Assembly (NCBI RefSeq): GCF_013744875.1
Contig: NZ_CP059399.1
Span: 1,364,001 to 1,428,000 of the forward strand
DNA: 64,000 nucleotides
Direction: 5' to 3'
Origin: Nocardia huaxiensis
Lineage (GTDB): Bacteria > Actinomycetota > Actinomycetes > Mycobacteriales > Mycobacteriaceae
Numbering within the stretch: position 1 is the stretch's first letter; each line of letters opens with the position of its first letter. The notes beneath the pieces were generated by a model, which was not told the origin of the DNA, did not search any database, and saw only the letters and a program-made list of their open reading frames with translations. Positions 17,648 to 39,294 of this stretch are shown piece by piece. The position numbers and the translations under genes are program-made.

Positions 17648-17693
17648 CGGCACACGGTATTCGGGACGTCCAACGAGACGGAGAGTGCGGGCG

Positions 17694-18752
17694 GTGAGCG
17701 CGCGGGAGGAAACCTGCCCGCCGGGCGAGCGTTCGAACGCGGAAGCGGTGCGGCAGCGGGGTGGCGGAGCTGCGTTCCAGGGGGTGCGGCAGTTGGAGGT
17801 GCGGGCGGGGGAGGGGCTGCGGGAGGCGGAGACCTTCGGCGCTTGGGAGGCCGCCATGGTGGAAACCTATTTCCCGCTGGCTGTTTCGCCGCTCGCGGAG
17901 GCGCCGACGCCTTCCTCGGGGTTTCACGGCAGCCTCGCGCACGGGCGATACGGCGCGGTGGACGTGACGGTGGTCGGGGCGACGCCGCAGCGGGTGCGGT
18001 TGACCGACAGCCTGATCGCCGCCGCGCCGGATGAATTTCTGCTCGCCAGCATCTGTACGCGGGGCCGCGGCCGCTTGCGGCTGGGGGATCGAGTCGCCGA
18101 GATCGGTCCCGGGGAGATGGTTTTCTTCCCCAGCAATCGAAAGCTGCACTGGGACTTCGGCGAGAGGTGGGAGAAGACCGTCCTGCAGGTACCGGTCGAC
18201 GTGCTGCGTGAGCGCAGCGGATGCACGCTCGATCAAGTGCGCACCGGTCTCACCCTGCCCCGGCAGGGTGCCATCGGTGTGGTGTCGCGCTTCTTCACCA
18301 ATCTGGCCGATCTGCAGCGCCACAAGCCGGACGAGGCTGCGCTACTGGCGAATTCGGCGCTGGATCTGCTGACGACCGCCGTGCGCCTGAGCGCGGGTGA
18401 AATCCTCACGGAGCGTTCCGCGCTCGCCTTCGCCCGGGAGCGGGTGCACGAGTTCATTCGCGCGCATTGCGCCGATCCGGGTCTCACCGTGGATCGAATC
18501 GCCGAGGGCTGCATGATGTCCCGGCGTTCGCTCTACCGTGTCTTCGACGAAATGGCCGACGGTCCGGGCACGCTGTTGCGCCGCTTGCGCATCGAACGCG
18601 CCGCCGGGCTGCTCGCGGAGTCCGCCCTCCCCATCGCAGTTGTCGCGACCGCGTCGGGTTTCAGCTCCGAAAGTCACTTCTACCGCGCGTTCCGACATGA
18701 AATGGGAACCACCCCAGCAGCTTTCCGCGCTCGGCCGGCACAGCCGGAATAG
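17694..18752 (+). CDS. AraC-family regulator, copy 1 of 4
   Basis: This regulator of about 352 residues has an N-terminal AraC_binding_2-type cupin-like domain and a C-terminal AraC HTH (last 100 residues: LTVDRIAEGCMMSRRSLYRVF and the second helix pair ending GFSSESHFYRAFRHEMG). The N-domain shares the pattern ETFGAWEAAMVETYFPL, then a YGAVDVTVVGATPQRV stretch, with copies 2 and 4. It is therefore one of four local paralogues. GTG 17694 has GGAG ten bases upstream; GTG 17685 is an alternative. The end is five bases from the convergent MBL hydrolase. Ligand and targets are unknown. Confidence 0.85.
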   Translation: MSAREETCPPGERSNAEAVRQRGGGAAFQGVRQLEVRAGEGLREAETFGAWEAAMVETYFPLAVSPLAEAPTPSSGFHGSLAHGRYGAVDVTVVGATPQRVRLTDSLIAAAPDEFLLASICTRGRGRLRLGDRVAEIGPGEMVFFPSNRKLHWDFGERWEKTVLQVPVDVLRERSGCTLDQVRTGLTLPRQGAIGVVSRFFTNLADLQRHKPDEAALLANSALDLLTTAVRLSAGEILTERSALAFARERVHEFIRAHCADPGLTVDRIAEGCMMSRRSLYRVFDEMADGPGTLLRRLRIERAAGLLAESALPIAVVATASGFSSESHFYRAFRHEMGTTPAAFRARPAQPE

Positions 18753-19531: not shown

Positions 19532-19768
19532 TGTTCCCCCAGGGCTTCTCCGATACCTGCCAGCCTAGTTGTCTGGGACGGGTGATTGTTCGGTTCTCGG
19601 CCAGAAGTGATTCGCGGATCCGCTGTGGACATCCGTCACGCAAGGCTCGGTACGTGGGTTCGGCGTGGGCCGCTCGAAGTCGATCTCTTCCTGGCGGACC
19701 TGCCGAAAGTTGGAAGATGTGAAGGGATTTCAGGGGTTCGCGGGTGCGCCGGGTGCGACAATCGGCCC

Positions 19769-20734
19769 ATGAGCGGCGGCTCCGAGCCCGCGGTGGTGGA
19801 GGTACGGTCCACGCCGGATGTTTCCGAAGAGGAAGCCTTCGAGCGGTGGGAGGCGGCGGTGGCGCAGGCCTATGTGCCCCTGACCGTCACGCCGGTGCGG
19901 TCGGGGGAGTTCCGGGCGCGGATCGTGCAATCGCGCTACGCGGATCTGGACGTGTCCACGGTGTCCGCGACGGGGCAGCGACTCATCCGGGCGCCCAGAA
20001 TGATTCACGAACCGGACGAACCGTATCTGTTCGCCAGTGTGACCACACACGGGCGCGGCTGGCTGTCGCAGGATGGGCGCGTAGGGGAAATGGCCGACGG
20101 CGGCATGATGCTGTACGTGAGCTCACGGCCGTTCACCGCGCATTTCGAGCAGTCCTGGGGTGTGGTGGCGGTGCAGGTGCCGCTCGCGCAGGTGGTGTGC
20201 GCGGCCGGGATTCCGCCCGATCGGCTGCCCACGGCGGTGCGGCTGCCGCCGGTCGGCGCGGCCGGTGTCGTCGGCCAATTCTTCTGCGGGCTGGCGCGTT
20301 TGCAGCACACCGATCCCGCGCAGGCGGCCGTGCTGGCCCGGCACGGCACCGGTCTGCTCGCCTCGGTGGTGCAGCTGGCGGCCGGGGAGATCCCCGACGA
20401 CGAGGCCGGGCAGGCGCTGACCAAGCAGCGGGCGCTCAGCTTCATCGAGCGCAACTACACCGATCCCGGCCTCACCGTGGAACGGGTGGCGAGCGCGTGC
20501 GCGGTATCCCGGCGAACCCTCTACCGCCTGTTCGAGCAGGGCGAGGACGGGGTGGCTTCGATGTTGCGGCGCATGCGAATCGAGCATGCGGTGGCCTTGA
20601 TCCGCACGGATCGGGTGCGGCCGCTGCTGTCCATCGCGCGCGCGTCCGGCTTCGTCTCCGAGCGTCAGTTCTATCGTGCGTTCAAACGGGAAACCGGCAT
20701 GACACCGGGTGAATTCCGGGTCAGATACGCCTGA
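19769..20734 (+). CDS. AraC-family regulator, copy 2 of 4
   Basis: This 321-residue protein has the AraC_binding_2-like domain (AFERWEAAVAQAYVPLTVTP, YADLDVSTVSATGQRLI) and an AraC HTH from about residue 220 (LTVERVASACAVSRRTLYRLF, RASGFVSERQFYRAFKRETG). ATG 19769 is chosen over the longer frame from 19586 because homology to the other three copies begins just after it. A GACAAT element six bases upstream makes a leaderless transcript possible. It is divergent from the MBL hydrolase and is followed by copy 3 after 202 bases. Confidence 0.85.
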   Translation: MSGGSEPAVVEVRSTPDVSEEEAFERWEAAVAQAYVPLTVTPVRSGEFRARIVQSRYADLDVSTVSATGQRLIRAPRMIHEPDEPYLFASVTTHGRGWLSQDGRVGEMADGGMMLYVSSRPFTAHFEQSWGVVAVQVPLAQVVCAAGIPPDRLPTAVRLPPVGAAGVVGQFFCGLARLQHTDPAQAAVLARHGTGLLASVVQLAAGEIPDDEAGQALTKQRALSFIERNYTDPGLTVERVASACAVSRRTLYRLFEQGEDGVASMLRRMRIEHAVALIRTDRVRPLLSIARASGFVSERQFYRAFKRETGMTPGEFRVRYA

Positions 20735-20936
20735 CTCGAATAGTCAGGTATCTGGCACCGGTGGGCAGTCACAGCCGGGTTATGGGTGTGAATACTGGGG
20801 TACGCCCGGTCGTTGCCCTGAGCCGCCGACGACCGGGCATGCGCCCACCCGGTCCGGATCCCCCTTCGCTGCGGGCGAAGCCGCAACACGAGCGAAAACT
20901 GTTTGCTGCACGGCGTCGTGGTGGGAAGATACCGGT

Positions 20937-21890
20937 GTGGATCATCCGGCTATGGCCGAGGTGGAGGTCTGCTCGTCATCGAACCTCTCGGCCCGGCAGG
21001 CCTTCGAACAGTGGGAGGCCGCGGTCGCCGACGCGGTGGTGCCCGCGCGGATAGAACCGCTGTGCAGCGGCCACTGGCACGGCAAGGTCAGCGTCACGCA
21101 GTTCGACCGCTTCAGCGTCTCGCGCATGCGGGCCAGTTCGCAGCGCGTGGTGCGCACCAAACGCATGGTCGAGCAATCCAGCGATGAGTTCCTGCTCGTG
21201 AACATGGTGCTGGACGGCACCAATTGGACCGAGCAGGGGCAGACGGCCACCACCCGCTGCGGTTCCATCGCCTTCTTCGACAGCGGATTGCCGCTGGAGA
21301 GCCGCACCACCGAGAATTCGGTCTCGGCCATCGTCCGCGCGCCGCTGCGGCTGGTGCTCGAGCATTCCGGGCTGAACCGCAACGAATTGCCCACCGCCAC
21401 CGCCATTCCCATCGACGGCGCGCTGGGCGTGGTCGCCGGGTTCTTCAAGGGATTGTCCGAATTGTCGCCGGGCGAGGCCGATCGCGCCGCCACCGTGCTC
21501 GGGTCGGAGGGCGCGAGCATGCTGGCGTCGGCGCTGCTGCTGGCGACCGGGAAAAGCTCACCGGCGCCATCGGATTCGCTTTACACCCGGCAGCAGGTGT
21601 TCGCGTTCATGCGGGCGCACTGCACCGACCCCAATCTCACCATCGAGGACATCGCGCACGCCTGTCTGATCTCCCGGCGCACGCTCTATCGCGCCTGTGA
21701 GGGCCACGGCGGGCCGGGCGGGCTGCTGCGCCGCATGCGGGTCGAGGTGGCTCGCAAACTCTTGCGTGCCGACCCCGCCCGCCCGCTCGCGGCCATTGCC
21801 GCGGCGTCCGGATTCGCCACCGACCGGCACTTCTACCGGGCATTTCGTGAGGAGACGGGCTTCACGCCCGGGCAGTTCCGCGGGCACTGA
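20937..21890 (+). CDS. AraC-family regulator, copy 3 of 4
   Basis: This 317-residue protein is the most divergent of the four local AraC copies. It keeps the N-terminal AFEQWEAAVADAVVPARIEP pattern and the HTH pair (LTIEDIAHACLISRRTLYRAC, AASGFATDRHFYRAFREETG). The sugar- or amide-binding part differs (TNWTEQGQTATT), which suggests another ligand. GTG 20937 follows GGGAAG eight bases upstream; ATG 20952 is also possible. It ends 168 bases before nitrilase-like gene 1. Confidence 0.83.
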   Translation: MDHPAMAEVEVCSSSNLSARQAFEQWEAAVADAVVPARIEPLCSGHWHGKVSVTQFDRFSVSRMRASSQRVVRTKRMVEQSSDEFLLVNMVLDGTNWTEQGQTATTRCGSIAFFDSGLPLESRTTENSVSAIVRAPLRLVLEHSGLNRNELPTATAIPIDGALGVVAGFFKGLSELSPGEADRAATVLGSEGASMLASALLLATGKSSPAPSDSLYTRQQVFAFMRAHCTDPNLTIEDIAHACLISRRTLYRACEGHGGPGGLLRRMRVEVARKLLRADPARPLAAIAAASGFATDRHFYRAFREETGFTPGQFRGH

Positions 21891-22018
21891 CCACCGGTCG
21901 TTCCAGGCGTCGGCTATCGGTCGTTTCGGACACCGATCGGCCCCCGGCGACCAGGCACTCCGGGTCCGTAGCTCGGCACGGTAGGTCGCTGTGAGCCGCT
22001 CCGCTTCGGCGAAGGGTG

Positions 22019-22058: not shown

Positions 22059-22913
22059 GTGCCGACGAATATTCGAGTGGCAGCCGTCCAGGCCGAACCG
22101 CGGTGGCTGGATCTGCGCGCCGGTGTCCAGCAGACCATCGACCTGATCGAGACGGCCGCCGCGGGCGGGGCGCAACTGGTGGCCTTTCCGGAGACCTTCC
22201 TGCCCGGCTATCCGTGGTGGCTGTGGCTGGACGAGGTGAGCTGGGGTCCGGGTTTCTTCGCCCGCTACCGGACGAACTCGATGACGGTGGGGCGCACCGA
22301 ATTCCGCCGCATCGCGGACGCGGCGCGGCGGCAGCGCATCCACGTGCTGCTGGGATTCAGTGAGCGGTGCGGCAGTTCGCTGTACCTGTCGCAATGCCTG
22401 ATCGACGATCGCGGCGTGCTGCTGGGTGTGCGGCGCAAACCCGAACTGACGCAACTGGAACGGAAGATCTTCTGCCCGGGCGAGCCCGGTGAGCCGCACG
22501 TGTTCCGTACCGGCCTCGGCCGCATCGGCGTGCAGGGCGGCTCCGAGCAACTGCATCTGCCGCCACGCCGCGAACTGGAACGCAGTGGGGCACAGGTGCA
22601 TATCGTCTCCTGGCCCGGTTTCATCGTCGCCCGCGATGTGGAATGGGGTGTGCGGGTGAACAATGCGGCCACGCTCTGGTACGCGGTGGTGGGGCAGCTG
22701 CACGTGGTGGCGGCCTGCTCGGTGATGGATGTGGCGGGCAGTGAGAGCCGGCGCGGGCCGGAACCGGTGAAACAGCTGGTGCGCGGACCGGGCGGGCACG
22801 CAAGGATTTTCGGCCCCGGCGGCCGGGAACTGGCCGCGCCGCTGGGCGGCCACGAGGAGGGGCTGATTTATGCGGATATCGAATTGGATTCCAGTGCCGA
22901 GTCGGCGGCGTGA
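22059..22913 (+). CDS. nitrilase-superfamily protein lacking the catalytic Cys (copy 1)
   Basis: This 284-residue protein is clearly of the nitrilase branch of the carbon-nitrogen hydrolase fold: IRVAAVQAEPRWLDL, then FPETFLPGYPWW with catalytic Glu45, and VRRKPELTQLERKIF with Lys127. At the place of the catalytic Cys (normally C-W-E) it reads GGSEQ, so the Cys is Gly161 and the Trp is Ser. It should therefore not perform normal nitrile or amide hydrolysis. GTG 22059 has AAGGAG five bases upstream. A scaffold, ligand-binding or sensory role next to AraC genes is inference. Confidence 0.85.
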   Translation: MPTNIRVAAVQAEPRWLDLRAGVQQTIDLIETAAAGGAQLVAFPETFLPGYPWWLWLDEVSWGPGFFARYRTNSMTVGRTEFRRIADAARRQRIHVLLGFSERCGSSLYLSQCLIDDRGVLLGVRRKPELTQLERKIFCPGEPGEPHVFRTGLGRIGVQGGSEQLHLPPRRELERSGAQVHIVSWPGFIVARDVEWGVRVNNAATLWYAVVGQLHVVAACSVMDVAGSESRRGPEPVKQLVRGPGGHARIFGPGGRELAAPLGGHEEGLIYADIELDSSAESAA

Positions 22914-23001
22914 GGGATCCTCCGCATTGGCCGTGCGGCCCGGTTTCTGACAAACTCGCCCATATTCGGCCGGGCAGTGGCCGTTCGTTGAGGGAAGCGG
23001 A

Positions 23002-23964
23002 GTGGAACGGTCAGAGTCCGTCGATCGGATCGAGGTGCGGTCCGGGCCGGAAACGCCCGAGTCGGAAGCTTTCGAGCGTTGGGAAGCGCAGGTGAGCGAT
23101 TCGTATGTGCCGCTTGCCGTTTCGCCAAAACCAAGCGGTCTTTTTCGTGGTCATATCGAACAGGCCCGATACGGTGACCTCGATCTGACGGTGATCGGAT
23201 CCACACCGCAGACGATCCAGCGCACCGATCGGCTCATCGCCCGCACCGAGGACGAGTACCTGCTCACCAGCATTCCCATTTCCGGCAGCGGCCGGCTGCA
23301 TCAGGACGGCCGCGTCGCCGACGTCACGCCGGGATCGCTGGTGTTCTACGACACTTCCCGGCCCTACCACTGGGAAATCGAGAACGAGTGGGAACAGGTC
23401 GTCCTGCAGGTGCCGCTGAGCCGGTTGCGTGAACGCTACGGGGTGGCGCGCCCGGATATTCCTACAGCGACTGCTTTTTCGGGTGACACGGCCCCCGGAA
23501 TCGTGGCGCAATTCTTCCGCGGCGTCGCCCGGCTGCAGAACACCGACCCGAGCGGGGCGGCGCTGCTCGCCGAACCGGGCATGGACCTGCTGGCCTCCGC
23601 GGTGATCGCGGCCTCCGGCGGCGTCCCGCGCGACCAGTCCGCCGACGCGCTGAACAGGCAACGGGTGCTGGCGTTCATGCGCAGCCACTGCGCCGACCCG
23701 GAACTCGGGGTGGATCGAATCGCCCAGGGCTGCCGAATGTCGCGGCGTACGCTTTACCGCGTATTCGGCGAACTCGAGGGCGGACCGGGAACGGTGCTGC
23801 GGCGCATGCGGATCGAACGCGCCTGCGACCTGTTGCGTAACGCGCCACAGTTGCCGCTCTCCGTCGTGGCGAAGGCCTCCGGGTTCCTGACGGAGCGTAG
23901 TTTCTACCGGGCATTCCGGCTCGAAATGGGCACCACGCCAGGCGCATTCCGCGCGTTGGCATGA
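23002..23964 (+). CDS. AraC-family regulator, copy 4 of 4
   Basis: This 320-residue regulator is closest to copy 1: AFERWEAQVSDSYVPLAVSP, YGDLDLTVIGSTPQTIQ, and the HTH region LGVDRIAQGCRMSRRTLYRVF with KASGFLTERSFYRAFRLEMG. GTG 23002 follows AGGGAAG six bases upstream. It lies between the two nitrilase-like genes, 88 bases after the first and 79 before the second. All face the same way, so they could be one transcript or could be controlled one by one. Confidence 0.87.
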   Translation: MERSESVDRIEVRSGPETPESEAFERWEAQVSDSYVPLAVSPKPSGLFRGHIEQARYGDLDLTVIGSTPQTIQRTDRLIARTEDEYLLTSIPISGSGRLHQDGRVADVTPGSLVFYDTSRPYHWEIENEWEQVVLQVPLSRLRERYGVARPDIPTATAFSGDTAPGIVAQFFRGVARLQNTDPSGAALLAEPGMDLLASAVIAASGGVPRDQSADALNRQRVLAFMRSHCADPELGVDRIAQGCRMSRRTLYRVFGELEGGPGTVLRRMRIERACDLLRNAPQLPLSVVAKASGFLTERSFYRAFRLEMGTTPGAFRALA

Positions 23965-24043
23965 TAAGTCGGCAAATCGGCACGTATGGGCACTGACTCA
24001 TCCGAAGAGATTCGCAAGCATCACGTTCCATGAGGAATGTCGG

Positions 24044-24937
24044 ATGAGGAAAACCGTGCGCGTCGCCGCCGTCCAAGCGGAACCGAAATGGTTGCGGCTG
24101 GCCGACGGAGTGGAACAGGCTGTCGAACTGATCGGTACGGCGGCTGCGTCGGGTGCTCGTCTGGTCGCATTCCCCGAGACGTTTCTACCCGGGTATCCCT
24201 GGTGGCGCTGGGTAGAATCCAATCAATGGAACGTCGAATATTCGGCTCGGTGTCGCGAGAATTCGATGACACGGGACGGGGCGGAAATGCGTGCGATCAC
24301 CGCCGCCGCGCACCGGTACGGAATCACCGTGGTACTCGGGTTCGGTGAGCTACAGGATCGCCGAATCTATATGGCGCAGGCCGTAATCGATGAATGGGGG
24401 CAGCTGGTCTCGGTGCGCCGCAAGGCCGGGCTGAACCCGGTGGAACGCAAGATATTCGCCTCCGGAACCCCGAATCTGCCCACCGTGCACCAGAGTTCGC
24501 TCGGCAAGCTGGGTGCGCTGTCCGGGCAGGAGAACCAGCGGCCGCTGCTCACCCGGGCGCTGCGCGCCGACGAGGAACAGATACACGTGGCGGCCTGGCC
24601 TGGAAACCCGGACGGCGACGCGCCGGCCGGGCCCGAATCCAGCGCCACCGCCAGCCGCATGTACGCCATGGAGACCGAGGCCTTCGTGCTCGCACCCTGC
24701 TCGGTGCTGAGTCCGGCGGCCTGGGGTGACAGACCTGGGGCGCGGCCCGTGCACAGCACCGGTCGCGCCCGCATCTTCGCCGCCGACGGCTCCGAGATCG
24801 TCACCCCGCTCGCGGAAGGCGCCGAGGGCATCCTCTACGCCGACCTCGACCTGGCCGCCGCCGCCTGCTACAGCTCCAACCCCGACGCCGGCCGGGGCCG
24901 GCGCGCCCGGCGCGGACCACTCAGCGCCGTCAGCTGA
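24044..24937 (+). CDS. nitrilase-superfamily protein lacking the catalytic Cys (copy 2)
   Basis: This 297-residue paralogue of the protein at 22059 has the same pattern: VRVAAVQAEPKWLRLADG, FPETFLPGYPWWRW with Glu45, and VRRKAGLNPVERKIF with Lys127. The nucleophile motif reads LSGQENQRPL, where nitrilases have L-x-C-W-E-N-x-x-P-L, so Cys is again Gly161 and Trp is Gln. The C-terminal strand YADLDL is intact and the gene has no stop or frameshift. Selection therefore seems to maintain it without the nucleophile. It ends 59 bases from the convergent csoR. Confidence 0.85.
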   Translation: MRKTVRVAAVQAEPKWLRLADGVEQAVELIGTAAASGARLVAFPETFLPGYPWWRWVESNQWNVEYSARCRENSMTRDGAEMRAITAAAHRYGITVVLGFGELQDRRIYMAQAVIDEWGQLVSVRRKAGLNPVERKIFASGTPNLPTVHQSSLGKLGALSGQENQRPLLTRALRADEEQIHVAAWPGNPDGDAPAGPESSATASRMYAMETEAFVLAPCSVLSPAAWGDRPGARPVHSTGRARIFAADGSEIVTPLAEGAEGILYADLDLAAAACYSSNPDAGRGRRARRGPLSAVS

Positions 24938-24996: not shown

Positions 24997-25329
24997 TCAG
25001 GAACGCACCAGGCGCGCGATGGCGTCGGTGGCCTCCTTGATCTTCGCCTCGGCCTCCGGGCCACCCGCCACGGCCGCGTCCACCACGCAGTGGCTGATGT
25101 GATCCTCCAGCAGCCCCATGGCGACCGCCTGCAGCGCCTTCGTCATCGCCGACACCTGCGTCAGGATGTCGATGCAGTACTTCTCCTCCTCGACCATGCG
25201 CTGTAGCCCCCGCGCCTGGCCTTCGATCCGCCGCAGCCGCTTGAGATAGTCGTCCTTGGCGGTGATGTAGCCGTGCGCGCTGTGATCGTGGCAGCTCTGC
25301 TCATCGGTGGTGGTCTGCTCGTCGCTCAC
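24997..25329 (-). CDS. csoR: CsoR-type copper-sensing repressor
   Basis: This 110-residue all-helical repressor has the Cu(I) ligands of CsoR: Cys in EKYCIDIL, and His and Cys in the HISHCV motif. An RRIEGQARGLQRMVEE helix carries DNA-contacting basic residues. The N-terminus has an extra CHDHSAH stretch that may bind metal. GTG 25329 was used because the longer frame has no ribosome site. A CsoR-type operator lies about 41 bases upstream (25370-25384), so it is probably self-regulated. No copper ATPase or chaperone is adjacent, so its targets are elsewhere. Confidence 0.88.
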   Translation of the reverse strand: MSDEQTTTDEQSCHDHSAHGYITAKDDYLKRLRRIEGQARGLQRMVEEEKYCIDILTQVSAMTKALQAVAMGLLEDHISHCVVDAAVAGGPEAEAKIKEATDAIARLVRS

Positions 25330-25369
25330 GACCGTCCTCGCTCCCGGCCCTCCGGCCCTCAACCGTTGA

Positions 25370-25384
25370 TACCCCCCGAGGGTA
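25370..25384 (-). promoter_or_regulatory. CsoR operator
   Basis: TACCCCCCGAGGGTA is a near-palindrome that matches the known type of CsoR site (a TACCCC arm and a GGGTA arm). It lies in the promoter region of csoR on the minus strand and supports copper-relieved autorepression. Confidence 0.65.
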
Positions 25385-25438
25385 CATGGAGCGCGGCTGC
25401 GATGCCACCAGCGTGACGGTGCCAACTCTCGGGACCCT

Positions 25439-25456: not shown

Positions 25457-25642
25457 ACCCCCAGGCGCGAGAGAACTGGGCTGCTACCCGGTCTGCCTCC
25501 AGCGGGGAGCCTGGTGCGCCGCGAGCGGGCCGCGACCTACCCTTTCGCTCAGTGGGGTTTCAGGGGTGAAACCCCTGAGAGCTCCCGAGAGTTGGTTGGT
25601 CCCGGGGCTGGGTCACATGCACGGATGCGCAAGAATCGGGGC

Positions 25643-26458
25643 ATGAGTTCGGATCCTCGGGCCACGCTGGCCATTATCGGCGGCAGTGGGTTCTACGACT
25701 TCTTCGGCGACGACGCGACCACCGTCGAGGTCGAGACACCCTATGGCGCGCCCAGTGCGCCCATCACCATCGGTGAGGTGGAGGGCCGCTCGGTGGCCTT
25801 CCTGCCCCGCCACGGCCGCAAGCACGAGTACTCGCCGCACACCGTGCCCTATCGCGCGAACATGTGGGCGCTGCGCTCGCTGGGGGTGCGCCGGATCTTC
25901 GGGCCGTGTGCCGTGGGCAGCCTGCGCGCCGACTGGGGGCCGGGCACCGTCGCCGTCCCCGATCAGCTGGTGGACCGCACCTCCGGCCGCGACCAGACCT
26001 TCTTCGACACCGGCGGCGTGCACGTCTCCTTCGCCGACCCGTACTGCGCCGACCTGCGCGCCGCGGCCGCGGGCTCGGCGGTCCCGGAGCTCACCCTCGA
26101 GGACCACGGCACCATGGTGGTCGTGCAGGGCCCGCGCTTCTCCACCCGCGCCGAATCCCGCTGGTTCGCCGGGCAGGGCTGGGAGCTGGTCAATATGACC
26201 GGCCACCCCGAAGCGGTCCTCGCCCGCGAACTCGAAATGTGCTACGCCGCAATCGCCCTCGTCACCGACCTGGACGCCGGCCTGGAATCCGGTGCGGGCG
26301 TCAGCGCCGCCGACGTCTTCGCCGAATTCGAGCGCAACCTCGTCCCCTTCAAGGCCCTCGTCCGCAATGCCGTGGCCGCCGTCGAAGGCGACGACACCTG
26401 CGACCACTGCCGCGTCCACGCGGCCACCGGCGTCCAGCTGCCGTTCGAGCTGCCGTAA
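25643..26458 (+). CDS. mtnP: S-methyl-5'-thioadenosine phosphorylase
   Basis: This 271-residue enzyme of the PNP/MTAP phosphorylase family splits methylthioadenosine with phosphate into adenine and methylthioribose-1-phosphate, the salvage step after polyamine synthesis. Motifs seen are the phosphate loop GGSGFYDFFG near residue 12, PRHGRKHEYSPHTVPYRANM, GPCAVGSLR, GPRFSTRAES and NMTGHPEAVLARELEMCYA. ATG 25643 was chosen over a longer frame that crosses the repeats. It is followed by one more repeat copy and by a perfect terminator. A different purine nucleoside substrate cannot be excluded. Confidence 0.88.
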   Translation: MSSDPRATLAIIGGSGFYDFFGDDATTVEVETPYGAPSAPITIGEVEGRSVAFLPRHGRKHEYSPHTVPYRANMWALRSLGVRRIFGPCAVGSLRADWGPGTVAVPDQLVDRTSGRDQTFFDTGGVHVSFADPYCADLRAAAAGSAVPELTLEDHGTMVVVQGPRFSTRAESRWFAGQGWELVNMTGHPEAVLARELEMCYAAIALVTDLDAGLESGAGVSAADVFAEFERNLVPFKALVRNAVAAVEGDDTCDHCRVHAATGVQLPFELP

Positions 26459-26727: not shown

Positions 26728-28116
26728 ATGAGCGCGAGTGGTCCTCGGGCCGACGGTATGCGGGTGTTGCTGACCGGTGCCGCGGGGTTCGTCGGCTCTC
26801 ATGTGCATCGGGCGCTGGTCGCGGCGGGGCACGAGGTGGTTGCGGCGGACGCTCTTCTCGGTGCCGTGCACGGGTTCGATCCGGTACTGCCCGAAGGGGT
26901 TTCGCTGGTCGACATCCGGGATCCCGAGGCGCTCGAGCCGCTGCTGCACGGGGTCGATGTGGTGTGCCATCTGGCGGCCGCCGTGCCGTTGCCCGACCTC
27001 GATCCCGAGGCGATGGACGAGCGGCCCGCGGGTGCTTCCGATCCGCTGGCGCGGGTCTCGCGCGCTGTACACGACAGGGGGGTCGAGCAGCATTCGACCG
27101 ACGGGTCGGGGCCGATCGAACGCGCTGGGCGGCAGCCTGATCCGAGTCGAATCGGTGACGGCCAGGGGCAACCGCACGGCATCGACGACCAGGGCCGAGC
27201 CGGGGTGGATCACGGTGAGACGCCGAGTCAGGGCCACGGTGCCGGACCCTGCGTGCGCGGGTCGGCGGGGGAGCGGGCGTCGGGCATCGGAGCGCAGCCC
27301 GGTCTGACCGGAATGCGTTGGGCCGCTTGGTATGCGGCGCACAATGATGCGGGCACGGCGGCCTTGCTGGCGGCCATGGAGCAGGCGGGGGTGCGGCGGC
27401 TGGTCATGGCGTCATCGGTCGCGGTGTACGGGGAGGGGCGGTACCGGGGTGTGCGCAGTGGGCCGTTCTTTCCCGGGGTGCGGCGGCGTACGGACCTGGA
27501 TCGCGGTCTGTTCGATCACCGCGCGCCCCGGACCGGAGAGGTGCTGACCTGGGAGCCGATGCGCGAAGACGCACCCCTGCGGCCTCGAAGCGCTTATGCG
27601 GCAAGCAAAGTGGCGCAGGAGCACTATGCGCTGGCCTGGGCCGCGAGCACCGGATCCGCGGCGACCGTGCTGCGCTACCACCACGTTTACGGCGAAGCCG
27701 CCGACTCCGGGCGTCTACTGCGCTCGGCGGAATCCGGTATCGTCGCACGGTTTCGAGCCGACCTGCGGGCCGAACGCGCGCCGCGAGTGTTCGAAGACGG
27801 CGGGCAGGTAAGGGATTTCGTGCATGTGCGGGATGTGGCGGCGGCGACGGTCGCGGCGGTGGCCCATCCGGTGGCCGGGTTCGTGCCGTTGAATATCGGT
27901 TCCGGGCGGCCGGTGACGCTGTGGGAGGTGGCCTCCACGATGGCGAAGGCAGTGGGCGGACCCACGCCGGTGGTGACCGGGCAGTATCGCCTCACCGACG
28001 TGCGGCATCTGGTGGCGCATCACGAGCGGGCCCGGCACATTCTGGATTTCGCCGCCCGCATCGCTCCCGCGCAGGGGCTGGCCGCTTACGCCGCTGCCGG
28101 CGGCCGAACCGAGTAG
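26728..28116 (+). CDS. NAD-dependent epimerase/dehydratase with internal insertion
   Basis: This 462-residue short-chain dehydrogenase of the extended type has the Rossmann motif GAAGFVGS near residue 17, a VVCHLAAAV strand, a catalytic Tyr/Lys in YAASKVAQEHYAL and late motifs FEDGGQVRDFVHVRDVA and NIGSGRPVTLWEV. Between AAAVPLPDLDPE and YAAHNDAGTAALL there are about 100 extra residues rich in Gly, Gln, Asp and Arg (about residues 92-198). Related proteins are expected to have about a dozen there. TAGGCT six bases before the ATG suggests a leaderless transcript. Activity is uncertain because of the insertion; sugar-nucleotide substrates are typical of the family. Confidence 0.8.
   Translation: MSASGPRADGMRVLLTGAAGFVGSHVHRALVAAGHEVVAADALLGAVHGFDPVLPEGVSLVDIRDPEALEPLLHGVDVVCHLAAAVPLPDLDPEAMDERPAGASDPLARVSRAVHDRGVEQHSTDGSGPIERAGRQPDPSRIGDGQGQPHGIDDQGRAGVDHGETPSQGHGAGPCVRGSAGERASGIGAQPGLTGMRWAAWYAAHNDAGTAALLAAMEQAGVRRLVMASSVAVYGEGRYRGVRSGPFFPGVRRRTDLDRGLFDHRAPRTGEVLTWEPMREDAPLRPRSAYAASKVAQEHYALAWAASTGSAATVLRYHHVYGEAADSGRLLRSAESGIVARFRADLRAERAPRVFEDGGQVRDFVHVRDVAAATVAAVAHPVAGFVPLNIGSGRPVTLWEVASTMAKAVGGPTPVVTGQYRLTDVRHLVAHHERARHILDFAARIAPAQGLAAYAAAGGRTE
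27001..27318 (+). other. candidate inserted segment inside the epimerase gene
   Basis: This stretch encodes the low-complexity block that interrupts the Rossmann fold. It keeps the reading frame. The opposite strand reads a hydrophobic, ordinary-looking protein frame here (for example the motif HPGSALVVDAVRLPLAV). It may therefore be a piece of foreign or rearranged coding DNA in reverse orientation. The borders are approximate. Confidence 0.4.
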
Positions 28117-28803: not shown

Positions 28804-30441
28804 TTACTGGTTGGCGTACGCCCGCGCCTGTCGCGGCTGCCCGATGTAGGTGGCCTCCCGCGGAATCGACACCAGATTCAGATTCACCTGGGTTGTCCCG
28901 GTACGCAGCAGGATTCGATTCCCCGCCGCCCCCGGCTGATGAATGGACAGATCCGGCCGGGTCCCCGGCCAGCCCATCGGATCACCGGTCACATAGATGG
29001 TCGTGACACCCGCGTGCGGGGCGGGCGCGAGCACCCCGTCCACCACCGCGGCCGTGAAATCCGCGTCGGACTGGTGGGTTTCGACCGCGATGGTCAACCG
29101 CTCCGGATTCCCGATCGTGGTCACCAGGTTCTCCCATGCGTGCGGCCGATCGGTGCGGATCAGCACCCGCTCGCCCACCGCCAGCGCCCGGAATACCAGC
29201 TGCTGCGCCAGATACAGTTCACCGGCCACGTACACGCTCGAAATACCCTGGCCGACAAGGCGAATCGCCACGCCGTTGCCGCCGTCGTCGGAGCCGAGCA
29301 GCTGCCCGCAGCCCGCCACCGGCAGCTGTAGCTCGTCGATGGCCTCGATCTCGTGCTCGGCCACCGGCACGGTGTCGTCGAGCCCCGGCACCGCCAGCGG
29401 CAGATGCGCGAGCAGGCTCTCCCGATGCCGTCCGTTCATGGAGATCATGTTCTTGTGCACCCGTTTCTCGGGCAGCTCCCGCGCGGTCAACCGCCAGGCC
29501 GCGCCGACCCGCACGGTCTCGGCGGAGCGTCCCGGCCGCAGCCGCACCGCCACCGTGGTGCCGCGCGAGGCGGGCACCCACAGCTGTGCGAGCACCTCCG
29601 AGTCGAGTTGTGCGGGATCCACGGCCGCACCGATGTTCACGCTGTTGCCGAGCTCGGTGAAGCGCCACGACTGGGTCAGCTCACCCGGGTCGGTACCGGC
29701 CGTGACCTGCAGCGCAGCCTGCTTGATCTCCGGCGCGGTGAGCACGCGGGCCGCACACGCGGCATCCTCGAGCGTGCGCACGATGCGCTGGGTCGCGATG
29801 GTGACCGACCGGCACGCACCCTCCAGCCCGCCGCCGCGCCGCTCGGCGGCCTCCGGGCAGAGCTCCGGATCGAAGGCGATGGCCAGCCACACCGTGCGAT
29901 GCGCGGTCGCCGGCAGCGGCCCCAGCAGCGTCTCGTAGATGGCGCCCGCCGGTGTTCCCGACCGGCTGCGATATCCGTGCGACACGATGTCGATGCCCGC
30001 CAGCAGAATGTCGTGCTGGCTCAAGCGTTTCGCCAATTCCGGCAGCGGCAGCAGATGCGACGCCTGCACGGCCGACCGGCCCAGCCGGGTCAGCCCGCCC
30101 TTCGGCGGCAGCACCTCGACCACCGCGACCACCCGGGTGCCGTCCCGGTACAGCCCGAGCGAACGCCCGTCCCCGGCACGGAAATCGATGACATCCGGCA
30201 CCTCGCGCACCTGCCGGGCGCGGAACCGCCAGCGGGTGGCGACCCAATCGGCCAGCGTGCGCTTGCCCAGCGGAATCAGCACGATCAGCCCGGCCACGAT
30301 CCCGGCCCCCAGCGCGGCGAGGAACGGCAGCCCGCCGAGCAGCACCGCGATCACGACGAGCACCGCGATCACCTGCGCGATCAACAGGTTCGTCAGCGAT
30401 ATGCGGCCGAGCAACGGGCGCGGCCCGCCGGTATCGGTCAT
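28804..30441 (-). CDS. eccE: type VII secretion membrane protein EccE
   Basis: This 545-residue protein has two adjacent N-terminal membrane helices (about residues 15-37 and 40-58) followed by a soluble periplasmic-side domain with the EccE pattern DGRSLGLYRDGTRVVAVVEV and, later, the TVRVGAAWRLTARELPEKRV stretch. EccE sits at the outer edge of the ESX membrane complex with EccB, EccC, EccD and MycP. M. tuberculosis ESX-4 lacks eccE; its presence here resembles the fuller ESX-4 of other actinobacteria. It is divergent from eccB across 138 bases. Confidence 0.88.
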   Translation of the reverse strand: MTDTGGPRPLLGRISLTNLLIAQVIAVLVVIAVLLGGLPFLAALGAGIVAGLIVLIPLGKRTLADWVATRWRFRARQVREVPDVIDFRAGDGRSLGLYRDGTRVVAVVEVLPPKGGLTRLGRSAVQASHLLPLPELAKRLSQHDILLAGIDIVSHGYRSRSGTPAGAIYETLLGPLPATAHRTVWLAIAFDPELCPEAAERRGGGLEGACRSVTIATQRIVRTLEDAACAARVLTAPEIKQAALQVTAGTDPGELTQSWRFTELGNSVNIGAAVDPAQLDSEVLAQLWVPASRGTTVAVRLRPGRSAETVRVGAAWRLTARELPEKRVHKNMISMNGRHRESLLAHLPLAVPGLDDTVPVAEHEIEAIDELQLPVAGCGQLLGSDDGGNGVAIRLVGQGISSVYVAGELYLAQQLVFRALAVGERVLIRTDRPHAWENLVTTIGNPERLTIAVETHQSDADFTAAVVDGVLAPAPHAGVTTIYVTGDPMGWPGTRPDLSIHQPGAAGNRILLRTGTTQVNLNLVSIPREATYIGQPRQARAYANQ

Positions 30442-35265: not shown

Positions 35266-38200
35266 ATGAGCACTGTCCGGTTCCAGCGCCGACCACGCCG
35301 GGAGATTCCACGCTCCCCGGGCGGTGAGGTGTCCCTGCAGCCGCCCCCGGAGATCCCGCGGGCCGTACCCGCCAATCTGTTCAGCAAGCTCATGCCGGTC
35401 GTCATGGTGATCGCGCTGGTCGGCATGATGGCGCTCATGTTCACCTCGGGGACGAGCACGTTCTCGAACCCGATGAGCCTGATGTTCCCCATGATGATGG
35501 TGATGTCCATGGTCGGCATGTACGCCGGCCAGGGCGGCAAGGGTGCGAAGGCGTCCGAGGCGAACGAGGACCGCAAGGACTATCTGCGCTACCTGGACCA
35601 GGTCCGCAAGGATGTCGAGGCGACCGCCGGGCAGCAGCGCGCCGCGGTCGAATGGAGTCATCCCGAGCCCGGCCTGATCTGGATGCTGGCCGGCACCACC
35701 CGCATGTGGGAGCGCCGCCCCGGCGACAAGGACTTCTGCCACGCCCGCATCGGGCTCGGCTCACAGCGGCTGGCGACCCGGCTGGTCGCGCCGGAGACCG
35801 GTCCGGTGGAGGAGCTGGAACCGATCGCGGCGGTGTCGCTGCGCCGGTTCGTGCGCACGCATTCGACCGTGCCGGATCTGCCCACCGCCATCGCGGTGAA
35901 GGGTTTCGCGAGCGTTCAGCTCACCGGTGATCGCGCGCAGGCCCGCGATATGACGCGGGCGCTGCTGCTGCAGCTGGCCATGTTCCAGGCGCCGGATCAG
36001 GTGTTGATCGCCGTCGTGTGTGGTCCCGACACCGCACGCGAATGGGAGTGGGCGAAGTGGCTGCCGCACACCCAGCATCCGGAATCGACCGACGGTGTCG
36101 GCACCGAGCGCATGGTGTACGGGTCCATTCGTGAGGCGCATGCGGGCCTGGCTCCCCTGCTGCACAACCGAGTTCGGTACTCGCGCAACGCGCCGCCGAA
36201 TCCGAACCTGGCGCAGATCGTGATCGTGGTGGACGGCGGACTGCTGGAAGCCGAGCAGGATCCCCTGCGGGAAACCGGATTCGAGAGCGTCACCGTCATC
36301 GACCTGTGCGGGTACGCGCCGCGGCTGGCGGCCTCGCGCGGCATCCAGATGCTGGTGGAAGACGGTGTGGCCTCTGGCCGCAGCCCCTCCGGGGCCATGG
36401 AGCGGTTCGCGTCCATCGACCGGCTCACCGCCAAGGAAGCCGAGCAGGCGGCGCGGCGGCTCGCGCCCTATCGCGCGGCCACGCAGAGCGCCGGCGGCGC
36501 GGTCAGCGAAGAGGCCGAGGTCATTACGAGCTGGGCGCAGATGCTGGCGCTCGGCGATATCGGCAACTTCAATCCGGCGTCGGCGTGGAAACCGCGGTAC
36601 GGCCGGGAGCGCCTGCGGGTGCCGTTCGGTCTCGGCGCGGACGGGCTGCCGGTCTTCCTCGATATCAAGGAGGCCGCCGAGGCCGGTATGGGCCCGCACG
36701 GCCTGTGCATCGGCGCCACCGGTTCCGGTAAATCGGAATTCCTTCGCACGCTGGTGCTTTCGCTCATCGCCACGCATTCGCCCGACCAGTTGAACTTCGT
36801 GCTGGTGGACTTCAAGGGTGGTGCGACCTTCCTCGGTCTGGAAGGCGTCGAGCACGTGGCGGCCATCATCACCAACCTCGAGGAAGAGGCCGACCTCGTC
36901 GACCGTATGCGCGACGCCCTCGCCGGTGAGATGAACCGCCGGCAGGAAGTCCTGCGCGCCGCGGGCAATTTCGCGAATGTCGGTGAATACGAGAAGGCGC
37001 GCGCCGCCGGCGCGGACCTGGATCCGCTGCCCGCGCTGTTCGTGGTGCTCGACGAGTTCTCCGAATTGCTCTCGCAGCACCCGGATTTCGCCGAACTGTT
37101 CACCATGATCGGCCGCCTCGGCCGCTCGCTGCACGTGCACCTGCTGCTCGCCTCGCAGCGGCTGGAAGAGGGGCGGCTCAAGGGTCTCGAGAGTCACCTG
37201 TCCTACCGGATCGGTTTGAAGACGTTCTCCGCCAATGAATCCCGTCAGGTGCTCGGTGTGCCCGACGCCTACAATCTGCCCGGCACGCCCGGCGGCGGCT
37301 ACCTGAAGTCGGATTCCGCCGATATCGTGCGCTTCCAGGCGGCCTACGTGTCCGGCCCGTACGTCGGCGGCGGTTCCGCCCCCGACGCCACCGCCGCCAC
37401 CCAGTCCGGCGAAATCGATGTCACCGCACGGCCTTTCACCGCCGTGCACGTGGATTTCCGGGCCGCCGACCGGGTTCCGCTGCCCGCCGTGCCCGCCGCG
37501 GCCGAACCGCAGCCCGAGGGCGATCAGATCTCCAACCTGCAGATGCTGGTCTCCCGCGTCCGCGGTCAGGGCCGTCCCGCGCACGAGATCTGGCTGCCGC
37601 CGCTGGCCGAAGCGCCCACCCTCGACCAGCTCAACCCGCGTTCGGTCCTCACCGGCGACTACAGCCAACTCGCCACGCTCCGTGCGGCTTTCGGCATCGT
37701 CGACCGCCCCTACGACCAGCGCCGCGACCCGCTCATGGTGGACCTGTCCGGTTCCCGCGGTCACGTCGCCATCGTCGGCGGCCCGCAGTCCGGCAAGTCG
37801 ACCGCGCTGCGGTCGCTGATCATGTCGATGTCGCTGACCCACACCGCCGAGCAGGTGCAGTTCTACTGCCTCGACTTCGGTGGCGGCACCATGACCGGTC
37901 TACAGGGCCTGCCGCACGTCGGCGCGGTCGCCAGCCGGATGGAAGAGGACACCGTCCGCCGCACCATCGCGGAAATGGTGACCATCGTCCGCCAGCGCGA
38001 ACTCCGCTTCCGCCAGCTCGGCATCGAATCCATGGCCGAATTCCGCCGCCTGCGCGCCATGGACCCGCTGTCCAGCCCCGCCGCGCAGGGCGCCCACGAA
38101 GACCCCTTCGGTGACGCCTTCCTGGTGATCGACGGCTACGGCACCTTCCGCCAGGAATTCGAAGTCCTCGACCAAACGGTCATGAACCTTGCCGTACAAG

Positions 38201-39294
38201 GTCTTTCGTACGGTGTGCACCTGGTGATCTCGCTGAACCGCTGGGCGGAAACCCGCCCGGCCCTGCGCGATCCCATCGGCACCCGCATCGAACTGCGCCT
38301 CGGCGACCCCATGGACTCCGAACTCGGCCGCAAGTTCGCCAGCCTGGTCCCCATGGGCCGTCCCGGCCGCGGCATGACCCCCGACAAACTTCACATGCTG
38401 ACGGCACTGCCCCGCATCGACGGCGACTCCAACCCGGATACGCTGGGTCAAGGTGTGGCACACGCGGTTTCGCTCATTGCCAACCAGACCCCGGGCCGTC
38501 CGGCTCCGCGCGTGCGCATGCTCCCCGAGCGCCTCCCGCGCGAGGACCTCCTCCGCCTGGCCGGCGACTGGCAGTCCCGCGTCGACCACAACTCGGGCAA
38601 GTGCATGCGCTTCCCGATCGGCATCAACGAATCCGAACTGGCCCCCGTCTACGTCGACTTCAACGCCGCCTCCCACTTCGTCGTCATCGGCGACACCGAA
38701 AGCGGCAAGACGACCCTGCTCCGCTCGCTCATCCAGTCGATCTGCGAGTCCAACACCCCCGACCAGGCCCGCATCATCATGGGCGACTACCGCCGCACCA
38801 TGCTCGGCACCGTCCCCGAGGGCTACCTGGCCGGCTACGGCTCCACCGCCCCCCAATTCACTCAGAACATGGCCGATCTCGCCGCGTATGTCAGCCAACG
38901 CATGCCCGGCCAAGACGTAACCCCCCAACAGCTCCGCGAACGTTCCTGGTGGCGAGGCCCCGAGCTCTACGTGATCGTCGACGACTACGACCTCGTAGCA
39001 ACCTCCAGCGGCAACCCCCTCCACGCCCTCCTGGACCACCTGGCCCACGCCCGAGACCTCGGCTTCCACCTCATCATCACCCGCCGCTCCGGCGGCGCCG
39101 GCCGAGCCCTGTACGAAGCCACCCTCGCCCGCCTGAAGGAACTCAACTCCACCGCCCTGACCCTCAGCTGCAGCCGAGACGAGGGCGTCCTCTTCGGCAC
39201 CACCCGCCCATCCATCCAACCCCCGGGCCGAGGCACCCTCATGACCCGCAGCGGCGAGGAATCCATCCAACTGGGATGGATGCCACAGGCCTAG
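35266..39294 (+). CDS. eccC: type VII secretion motor ATPase EccC
   Basis: This 1342-residue FtsK/SpoIIIE-type ATPase has two membrane helices (about 42-60 and 70-88), a DUF domain and three ATPase domains. The Walker A motifs are GATGSGKSE (about 483), GGPQSGKST (about 837) and GDTESGKTT (about 1142). Walker B-type ends are VVLDEFSEL, FLVIDGYGTF and YVIVDDYDLV; as usual in EccC, the second and third are less canonical. The C-terminal domain binds the export signal of WXG100 partners. The Esx pair at 41540-42214 is the likely substrate. It is fused in one chain, as in ESX-4. Confidence 0.96.
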   Translation: MSTVRFQRRPRREIPRSPGGEVSLQPPPEIPRAVPANLFSKLMPVVMVIALVGMMALMFTSGTSTFSNPMSLMFPMMMVMSMVGMYAGQGGKGAKASEANEDRKDYLRYLDQVRKDVEATAGQQRAAVEWSHPEPGLIWMLAGTTRMWERRPGDKDFCHARIGLGSQRLATRLVAPETGPVEELEPIAAVSLRRFVRTHSTVPDLPTAIAVKGFASVQLTGDRAQARDMTRALLLQLAMFQAPDQVLIAVVCGPDTAREWEWAKWLPHTQHPESTDGVGTERMVYGSIREAHAGLAPLLHNRVRYSRNAPPNPNLAQIVIVVDGGLLEAEQDPLRETGFESVTVIDLCGYAPRLAASRGIQMLVEDGVASGRSPSGAMERFASIDRLTAKEAEQAARRLAPYRAATQSAGGAVSEEAEVITSWAQMLALGDIGNFNPASAWKPRYGRERLRVPFGLGADGLPVFLDIKEAAEAGMGPHGLCIGATGSGKSEFLRTLVLSLIATHSPDQLNFVLVDFKGGATFLGLEGVEHVAAIITNLEEEADLVDRMRDALAGEMNRRQEVLRAAGNFANVGEYEKARAAGADLDPLPALFVVLDEFSELLSQHPDFAELFTMIGRLGRSLHVHLLLASQRLEEGRLKGLESHLSYRIGLKTFSANESRQVLGVPDAYNLPGTPGGGYLKSDSADIVRFQAAYVSGPYVGGGSAPDATAATQSGEIDVTARPFTAVHVDFRAADRVPLPAVPAAAEPQPEGDQISNLQMLVSRVRGQGRPAHEIWLPPLAEAPTLDQLNPRSVLTGDYSQLATLRAAFGIVDRPYDQRRDPLMVDLSGSRGHVAIVGGPQSGKSTALRSLIMSMSLTHTAEQVQFYCLDFGGGTMTGLQGLPHVGAVASRMEEDTVRRTIAEMVTIVRQRELRFRQLGIESMAEFRRLRAMDPLSSPAAQGAHEDPFGDAFLVIDGYGTFRQEFEVLDQTVMNLAVQGLSYGVHLVISLNRWAETRPALRDPIGTRIELRLGDPMDSELGRKFASLVPMGRPGRGMTPDKLHMLTALPRIDGDSNPDTLGQGVAHAVSLIANQTPGRPAPRVRMLPERLPREDLLRLAGDWQSRVDHNSGKCMRFPIGINESELAPVYVDFNAASHFVVIGDTESGKTTLLRSLIQSICESNTPDQARIIMGDYRRTMLGTVPEGYLAGYGSTAPQFTQNMADLAAYVSQRMPGQDVTPQQLRERSWWRGPELYVIVDDYDLVATSSGNPLHALLDHLAHARDLGFHLIITRRSGGAGRALYEATLARLKELNSTALTLSCSRDEGVLFGTTRPSIQPPGRGTLMTRSGEESIQLGWMPQA

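Follow-up and report, generated by a model that had tools for sequence, protein, structure and literature searches.

Cysteine-less nitrilase homologues of Nocardia encoded beside AraC-type regulators and a conserved direct repeat

Nitrilases (EC 3.5.5.1) are characterised by a Glu-Lys-Cys triad in which the Cys is the nucleophile, and they assemble into oligomers and filaments. In the nitA/nitR arrangement of Rhodococcus rhodochrous J1 and Alcaligenes faecalis, a nitrilase-type gene stands beside the gene of an AraC-family regulator. Enzyme-derived sensors or partners of regulators are also known in Gal3/Gal80, in AmiC with AmiR, and in the amidotransferase-like domain of GbdR-type AraC proteins. 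According to PMC6265244, NitR activates the nitrilase gene on isovaleronitrile or caprolactam, and PMC1199592 noted in 2005 that araC genes lie beside nitrilase genes in Bacillus and Pseudomonas. The gene array described here, from Nocardia huaxiensis, is like nitA/nitR in its pairing of a nitrilase-type gene with an AraC-family regulator gene. Unlike nitA/nitR, its nitrilase-type product has no Cys, and several AraC genes occur in arrays made of repeats of the unit. It would be like Gal3/Gal80, AmiC/AmiR and the GbdR type if a binding protein or dead enzyme fold senses here, too, beside a regulator; those have other folds, however, and Nit is a protein of its own, not part of the regulator as a domain. 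In the one library of open-licence literature that was searched, no paper on nitrilases that lack the Cys or are pseudoenzymes was found.

The window, meaning the whole stretch of 64,000 nucleotides that was analysed, contains two such genes, nit1 and nit2. The features of the array are as follows.

17685..18752, + strand: araC1, another AraC_binding_2 regulator of the array, though a less constant member
19586..20734, + strand: araC2, a further AraC_binding_2 regulator of the array
20709..21890, + strand: araC3, a regulator with AraC_binding_2 and HTH_18 domains, directly upstream of nit1
21954..21991, + strand: two copies of GGCAC-N5-GTC as an operator-like direct repeat of 21 bp; lies 67 bp upstream of the start of nit1, predicted from sequence only
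22059..22913, + strand: nit1, Cys-less nitrilase homologue of 284 aa with Gly161 (QGGSEQ) and no C-terminal tail
23002..23964, + strand: araC4, a regulator with AraC_binding_2 and HTH_18 domains, directly upstream of nit2
23958..23995, + strand: second operator-like direct repeat of 21 bp; lies 48 bp upstream of the start of nit2, likewise predicted
24044..24937, + strand: nit2, Cys-less nitrilase homologue of 297 aa with Gly161 (LSGQEN)
24997..25425, - strand: csoR-like metal-sensitive repressor (PF02583), a landmark at the array border
25514..26458, + strand: S-methyl-5'-thioadenosine phosphorylase, a landmark adjoining the array; its family, F2, occurs at 35 of the 42 loci

The products of araC3 and araC4 both match PF14525 and PF12833. 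The true start of araC3 is probably further downstream than 20709; its domain begins near residue 102. The first half-site of the nit2 repeat overlaps the 3' end of araC4 (stop codon 23962-23964). Each nit gene has the makings of a NitR-type unit, an adjoining AraC-family gene and a predicted direct-repeat operator. An anti-phage defence system was considered and rejected, since nit1, nit2, araC3 and araC4 gave no hit to any PADLOC family. The csoR-like gene is probably outside the module. Several neighbours are recorded here in their own right. A gene of the metallo-beta-lactamase fold (PF00753; 18758-19531, - strand) lies between araC1 and araC2; its likeness to quorum-quenching lactonases is weak, all scores being below the NCBIfam cut-offs, and among the examined loci it occurs elsewhere only in N. 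acididurans (L001/L084). An epimerase-family gene (26728-28116, + strand) matches Pfam in three stretches and is unmatched at about residues 95-200, as if it carried an in-frame insert. The presence of EccE and FtsK/SpoIIIE-type ATPase genes (28804-30441, - strand, and 35266-39294, + strand) suggests that a type VII (ESX) secretion locus lies right beside the array.

Nit1 and Nit2 are intact nitrilase-fold proteins without the catalytic Cys. Their reading frames are uninterrupted from start to stop, and the two proteins share 44% identity. Protein P0123, named as from Nocardia huaxiensis, matches Nit2 at 100% identity. The CN_hydrolase domain PF00795 covers nearly the full model in both (123 bits in Nit1 and 142.7 bits in Nit2; cut-off 23.2). 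Modelling of the fold, proposed in an earlier sequence-only reading of this DNA, returned the nitrilase fold: the AlphaFold2 models have mean pLDDT of 83.7 and 88.2 (Nit1 and Nit2), and the top Foldseek match of both is 6zby, at TM scores of 0.88 and 0.85 by query length. The nearest solved structures are 6zby, which is NitA of Pseudomonas fluorescens EBC191, and 8uxu, a bacterial nitrilase whose title names a filament. The full-length domain and the fold place both proteins in the CN-hydrolase superfamily. The triad that defines nitrilases is incomplete, with Glu45 and Lys127 present and Gly161 in place of Cys, and the proteins score below the cut-offs of NCBIfam TIGR04048 (111 and 136.8 bits against 502.6) and NF040852 (41.4 and 31.3 bits against 500).

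In HMMER alignments to 6zby, the catalytic block is ungapped (nit1, LGRIGVQGGSEQ; nit2, LGKLGALSGQEN; 6zby, LGRLGALCCAEH). Gly161 falls on the nucleophile column in both proteins, Glu45, Lys127 and Glu134 are aligned, and PGYPWW is kept. The sequence-only reading had claimed two intact paralogues with Gly161 instead of Cys, a gap-free alignment through Glu45, Lys127 and the nucleophile, and retention of Glu, Lys and GYPWW; all of this stands, with Glu134 to be added to what is kept. Misalignment is an unlikely source of Gly161, since the alignments are ungapped through the catalytic block, and it was rejected. Sequencing error was rejected as well, Gly being present in 14/14 copies each of nit1 and nit2 (the window and 13 Nocardia genome records, L001-L013). 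Those 13 records have both nit1 and nit2, adjoining AraC and csoR genes. The whole fold, Glu45, Lys127, Glu134, His181 and PGYPWW are common to nitrilases (6zby, 8uxu) and Nit1/Nit2, whereas the Cys nucleophile, the loop after Lys127, Trp162 and the C-terminal motif of nitrilases are missing from the Gly type. Relatives are annotated as 'Aliphatic nitrilase' or 'nitrilase-related carbon-nitrogen hydrolase'. Because the nucleophile is absent, the enzyme name is probably wrong for the whole Gly-type family.

A search of 150 Nocardia genomes gave matches in 41 at E <= 1e-25, and reading the loci of those 41 showed Gly-type genes in 36 genomes and Cys-type genes only in the other 5. The resulting Gly-type set holds 65 intact genes at 41 loci (window and Nocardia genomes), after exclusion of five pieces that are short or broken (one each at L055, L066 and L083, two at L075). 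At L055 and L075, nit1 is a remnant or broken while nit2, araC3 and araC4 persist. The Cys-type comparison set consists of the 140 nearest other relatives, 135 among the listed matches and 5 from the genus loci. Column 161 is Gly in 65/65 Gly-type and Cys in 140/140 Cys-type proteins. Lys127 and Glu134 are invariant in both sets (65/65 and 140/140), Glu45 is present in 64/65 (one Asp, at L056) and 140/140, and His181 is also retained in the Gly type, as in active nitrilases. Close homologues with Cys in the same gene pair, which the sequence-only reading had named among the observations that would count against it, did not turn up when the 65 genes were checked for them. Beyond the Nocardia set, a family search of a sample of 301 genomes listed 30 matches that came with a locus, of which 5 were Gly-type loci of genomes already in that set and the other 25 all had Cys; a class search (sample of 394 genomes) gave Cys in 14/14 matches outside the known Nocardia genomes. 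All the Gly-type proteins that bear an organism name among the listed relatives are from Nocardia.

The same genome counts bear on whether Nit lacks activity of its own and serves an active nitrilase of the same cell as a partner subunit or decoy, a role that the oligomers and filaments of nitrilases would make conceivable. The 36 Gly-type genomes have no Cys-type gene among their matches at E <= 1e-25, and the Gly type is missing in turn from the 5 genomes where Cys-type matches occur; this check scored at most 16 candidates per genome, and the contig-end piece of G079 stops short of the column. More distant CN hydrolases exist, G001 having 8 PF00795 matches including the two nit genes. The partner role was rejected for this want of co-occurrence among the matches, and the missing C-terminal tail of nit1 also speaks against it. 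We consider it very improbable.

Of the columns with 93% or more conservation among Cys-type proteins, the Gly type keeps 41 (at least 90%) and has lost 21 (below 30%). The lost columns lie chiefly after Lys127 (128, 129, 132, 139-145) and near the nucleophile, and most of the C-terminal region that Cys-type proteins conserve is absent from the Gly type. There are 29 invariant columns among the 65 Gly-type genes. Ser, Thr and Cys do not occur among them, so that the family as a whole shows no substitute for the nucleophile, and a shared one was rejected. The retention of Glu45, Lys127, Glu134 and His181 as in active nitrilases would fit a repurposed enzyme, in which the Cys-free Glu-Lys-Glu site runs some other reaction (water addition without a covalent intermediate, isomerisation or condensation) and is induced through AraC by its substrate; the control suggested by the predicted operator, which looks substrate-inducible like that of nitrilase genes, would fit it too. 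However, the Gly type no longer has the loop after Lys127 or some other conserved stretches, no Ser, Thr or Cys is invariant, and no pathway gene recurs beside nit. We think such new chemistry rather unlikely.

The sequence-only reading had argued from the loss being the same in both paralogues, as if each counted separately. That premise is wrong, because all the Gly-type rows form one clade with one change. In a tree of 85 rows, the 47 Gly-type rows all fall on one side of a single branch (one change, support 100). A careful tree of 82 rows, from which the nucleophile block and three very distant rows had been removed, gives the same split of the 47 (one change, 100/100). Two independent Cys losses were rejected, as both trees need only one change, placed before the paralogue split. 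As reconstructed from these sequences, then, the tree shows Cys changing to Gly once, long ago, in the Gly-type family.

The Gly clade has a tree length of 19.2 substitutions per site (47 rows). The median pairwise dN/dS (Nei-Gojobori, custom script) of the 19 nit1 genes is 0.124 and that of nit2 is 0.245 (18/21 genes; three less similar ones failed the identity filter), with 0.185 in 7 Cys-type Streptomyces nitrilases for comparison and 0.158 and 0.132 in the neighbouring araC4 and csoR. Given that Gly161, Lys127 and Glu134 do not vary over a tree of about 19 substitutions per site, and given the low dN/dS, selection on the Cys-less protein is well supported. The same invariant site and low dN/dS favour the earlier claim of selection on a role other than covalent hydrolysis. 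Genes on their way out might show the losses seen here, of the Cys, of conserved loops and of the tail, together with a nit1 that is broken or a remnant in two genomes. But a site unchanged over the whole length of the clade, low dN/dS, retained operators and repeated duplication are at odds with decay; it is already contradicted by conservation, and we find it barely credible.

An AraC_binding_2-type gene lies directly upstream, on the same strand, of 59 of the 65 intact Gly-type genes, at a distance of 83-670 bp by match coordinates. Gly homologues are therefore usually but not always found beside such a regulator, which had been posed as a check: the pairing holds for those 59 and fails for six orphans (L054, L058, L061, L064, L065, L074). 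The orphans occupy other chromosomal places, with no AraC neighbour and no operator, and they group together on the 85-row tree; in G043 and G065, the sole match in the genome is an orphan. These genes may have another role than the paired copies do. Arrays hold up to three AraC-nit units, with three in a row at L056. Neighbourhood gene calls in 42 loci (custom simple gene caller) gave a common setting in 35, where the array lies between a block that looks by eye like rpoA-rplQ-truA and csoR plus the S-methyl-5'-thioadenosine phosphorylase gene. The remaining 7 comprise a piece at a contig end and the loci of the six orphans. AraC and nit genes are the only ones to recur widely inside the array. 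Since no pathway gene recurs inside the array among the 42 loci, the best reading of the gene content is that the array would be a self-contained unit. An oxidoreductase-like family (F21), resembling by eye an F420-dependent LLM-class enzyme, was seen within or beside the array in three loci (L071, L080, L081).

On the AraC tree the labels cluster, but several AraC subclades contribute the genes upstream of group B nit genes, so AraC partners have been exchanged in that group; strict co-inheritance of AraC and nit was rejected because of this mixing. At L079, no intact araC3 was found, yet nit1 and its operator are there. Cys-type relatives also often have such an AraC gene close by (16/25 loci of the family search and 4/14 of the class search, in flanks of about 1.5 kb), so the association of AraC with nit is probably older than the Cys loss.

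A shared element was revealed by alignments of the intergenic regions, 20 before nit1 and 21 before nit2. Among spacings of 14-28, self-similarity peaks at 21 bp before nit1 (19 sites), nit2 (20/21) and B1 (10/13) genes. Direct repeats two helical turns apart are typical of AraC/XylS activators. A half-site model trained solely on the 19 nit1 promoters finds the pair in 34/40 other paired nit promoters (nit2 18/21, B1 13/13, B2 2/5, L071 1/1), at a score that no shuffled promoter reached. With the 19 training promoters included, the predicted operator is present before 53/59 paired genes; it is missing at this score from 3/21 nit2 and 3/5 B2 promoters, and at a stricter score the nit2 calls fall to 11/21. 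The pair was found before none of 107 araC, 35 csoR, 2 mbl, 6 orphan and 5 Cys-type genes. The full pattern, derived from the two sites of the window and related sites, matches the window exactly twice, once per nit gene, against 0.03 expected by chance. In 14 genomes with the nit1/nit2 pair, 28 of the 30 matches at up to 2 mismatches lie before nit1 or nit2; at up to 3 mismatches there are 53 matches, of which 25 are away from nit, compared with 19 for a reversed-pattern control. In 13 genomes of other groups, a variant pattern occurs once each in 12, always before a nit gene, and its control gave 1 match. The proteins encoded by araC3 and araC4 presumably bind this putative operator. The link to the neighbouring AraC genes that had been proposed earlier is supported, and the operator-like repeat strengthens it.

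Eleven of the regions with 3-mismatch matches away from nit were inspected. Five adjoin one common small gene (MTA.EEE.QI.ELV...), neither AraC nor nit, at L187, L188, L190 and L191 near 6000 and at L193 near 2521. The looser 21-bp repeat there is possibly the site of another regulator.

The pairing and the operator could also reflect a co-regulator, a Nit protein that binds the neighbouring AraC protein in a ligand-dependent way and tunes its activity. Gal3/Gal80 and AmiC/AmiR are precedents of the dead-enzyme type. The AraC gene directly upstream in 59/65 cases and the runs of up to three consecutive AraC-nit units would suit this role, and close operator matches that fall mostly at nit genes would make a closed loop. 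Against it are the orphans without an AraC neighbour and the group B AraC partners drawn from several subclades; moreover, if nit were the sole target as well, the loop would have no visible output. We judge co-regulation improbable.

The explanation that we put first, at roughly even chances of being right, is that the nit1/nit2 family lost its Cys once and was kept and duplicated for a non-hydrolytic, AraC-controlled job of ligand binding. The tree shows the first step, in which a Nocardia nitrilase homologue lost its nucleophilic Cys, to Gly, a single time. Purifying selection then holds an unchanging Glu-Lys-Glu-Gly site, as the sequences show, and conservation establishes the AraC pairing and the operator-like repeat. 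The AraC_binding_2 proteins encoded alongside would control each paired nit through the 21-bp repeat, most likely as activators, and the kept pocket would bind a small ligand without cleaving it. As a guess, the ligand might be the molecule that induces AraC or one related to it, as with NitR and nitrilase, and the induced Nit might buffer that molecule or hand it on. By analogy, the simplest history would be a NitR-like unit whose enzyme lost its Cys while the pocket and the AraC control stayed. A purely protein-protein role is insufficient, because by itself it would leave the retention of the pocket residues unexplained. Running counter to ligand binding under AraC control are the six orphans without AraC or operator, the missing operators, L079, the broken nit1 genes and the exchanged partners. 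As far as the sequences allow a ranking, this reading would come first, new chemistry and co-regulation next, and a decoy subunit and decay last.

What is new here is the AraC pairing of 59/65 Gly-type genes, the arrays, and the 21-bp direct-repeat operator. Because that operator has few close genomic matches, the question is directly testable. It is a tentative idea, and one that we would sooner doubt than assume, that the nitrilase fold serves here as a free-standing small-molecule sensor in repeated AraC-sensor units with private operators, multiplied in one genus. If binding without cutting is true, an inducible enzyme would have become a binding or sensing protein while still under its AraC regulator, and the family could be a source of modules for sensing compounds that resemble nitriles, amides or oximes.
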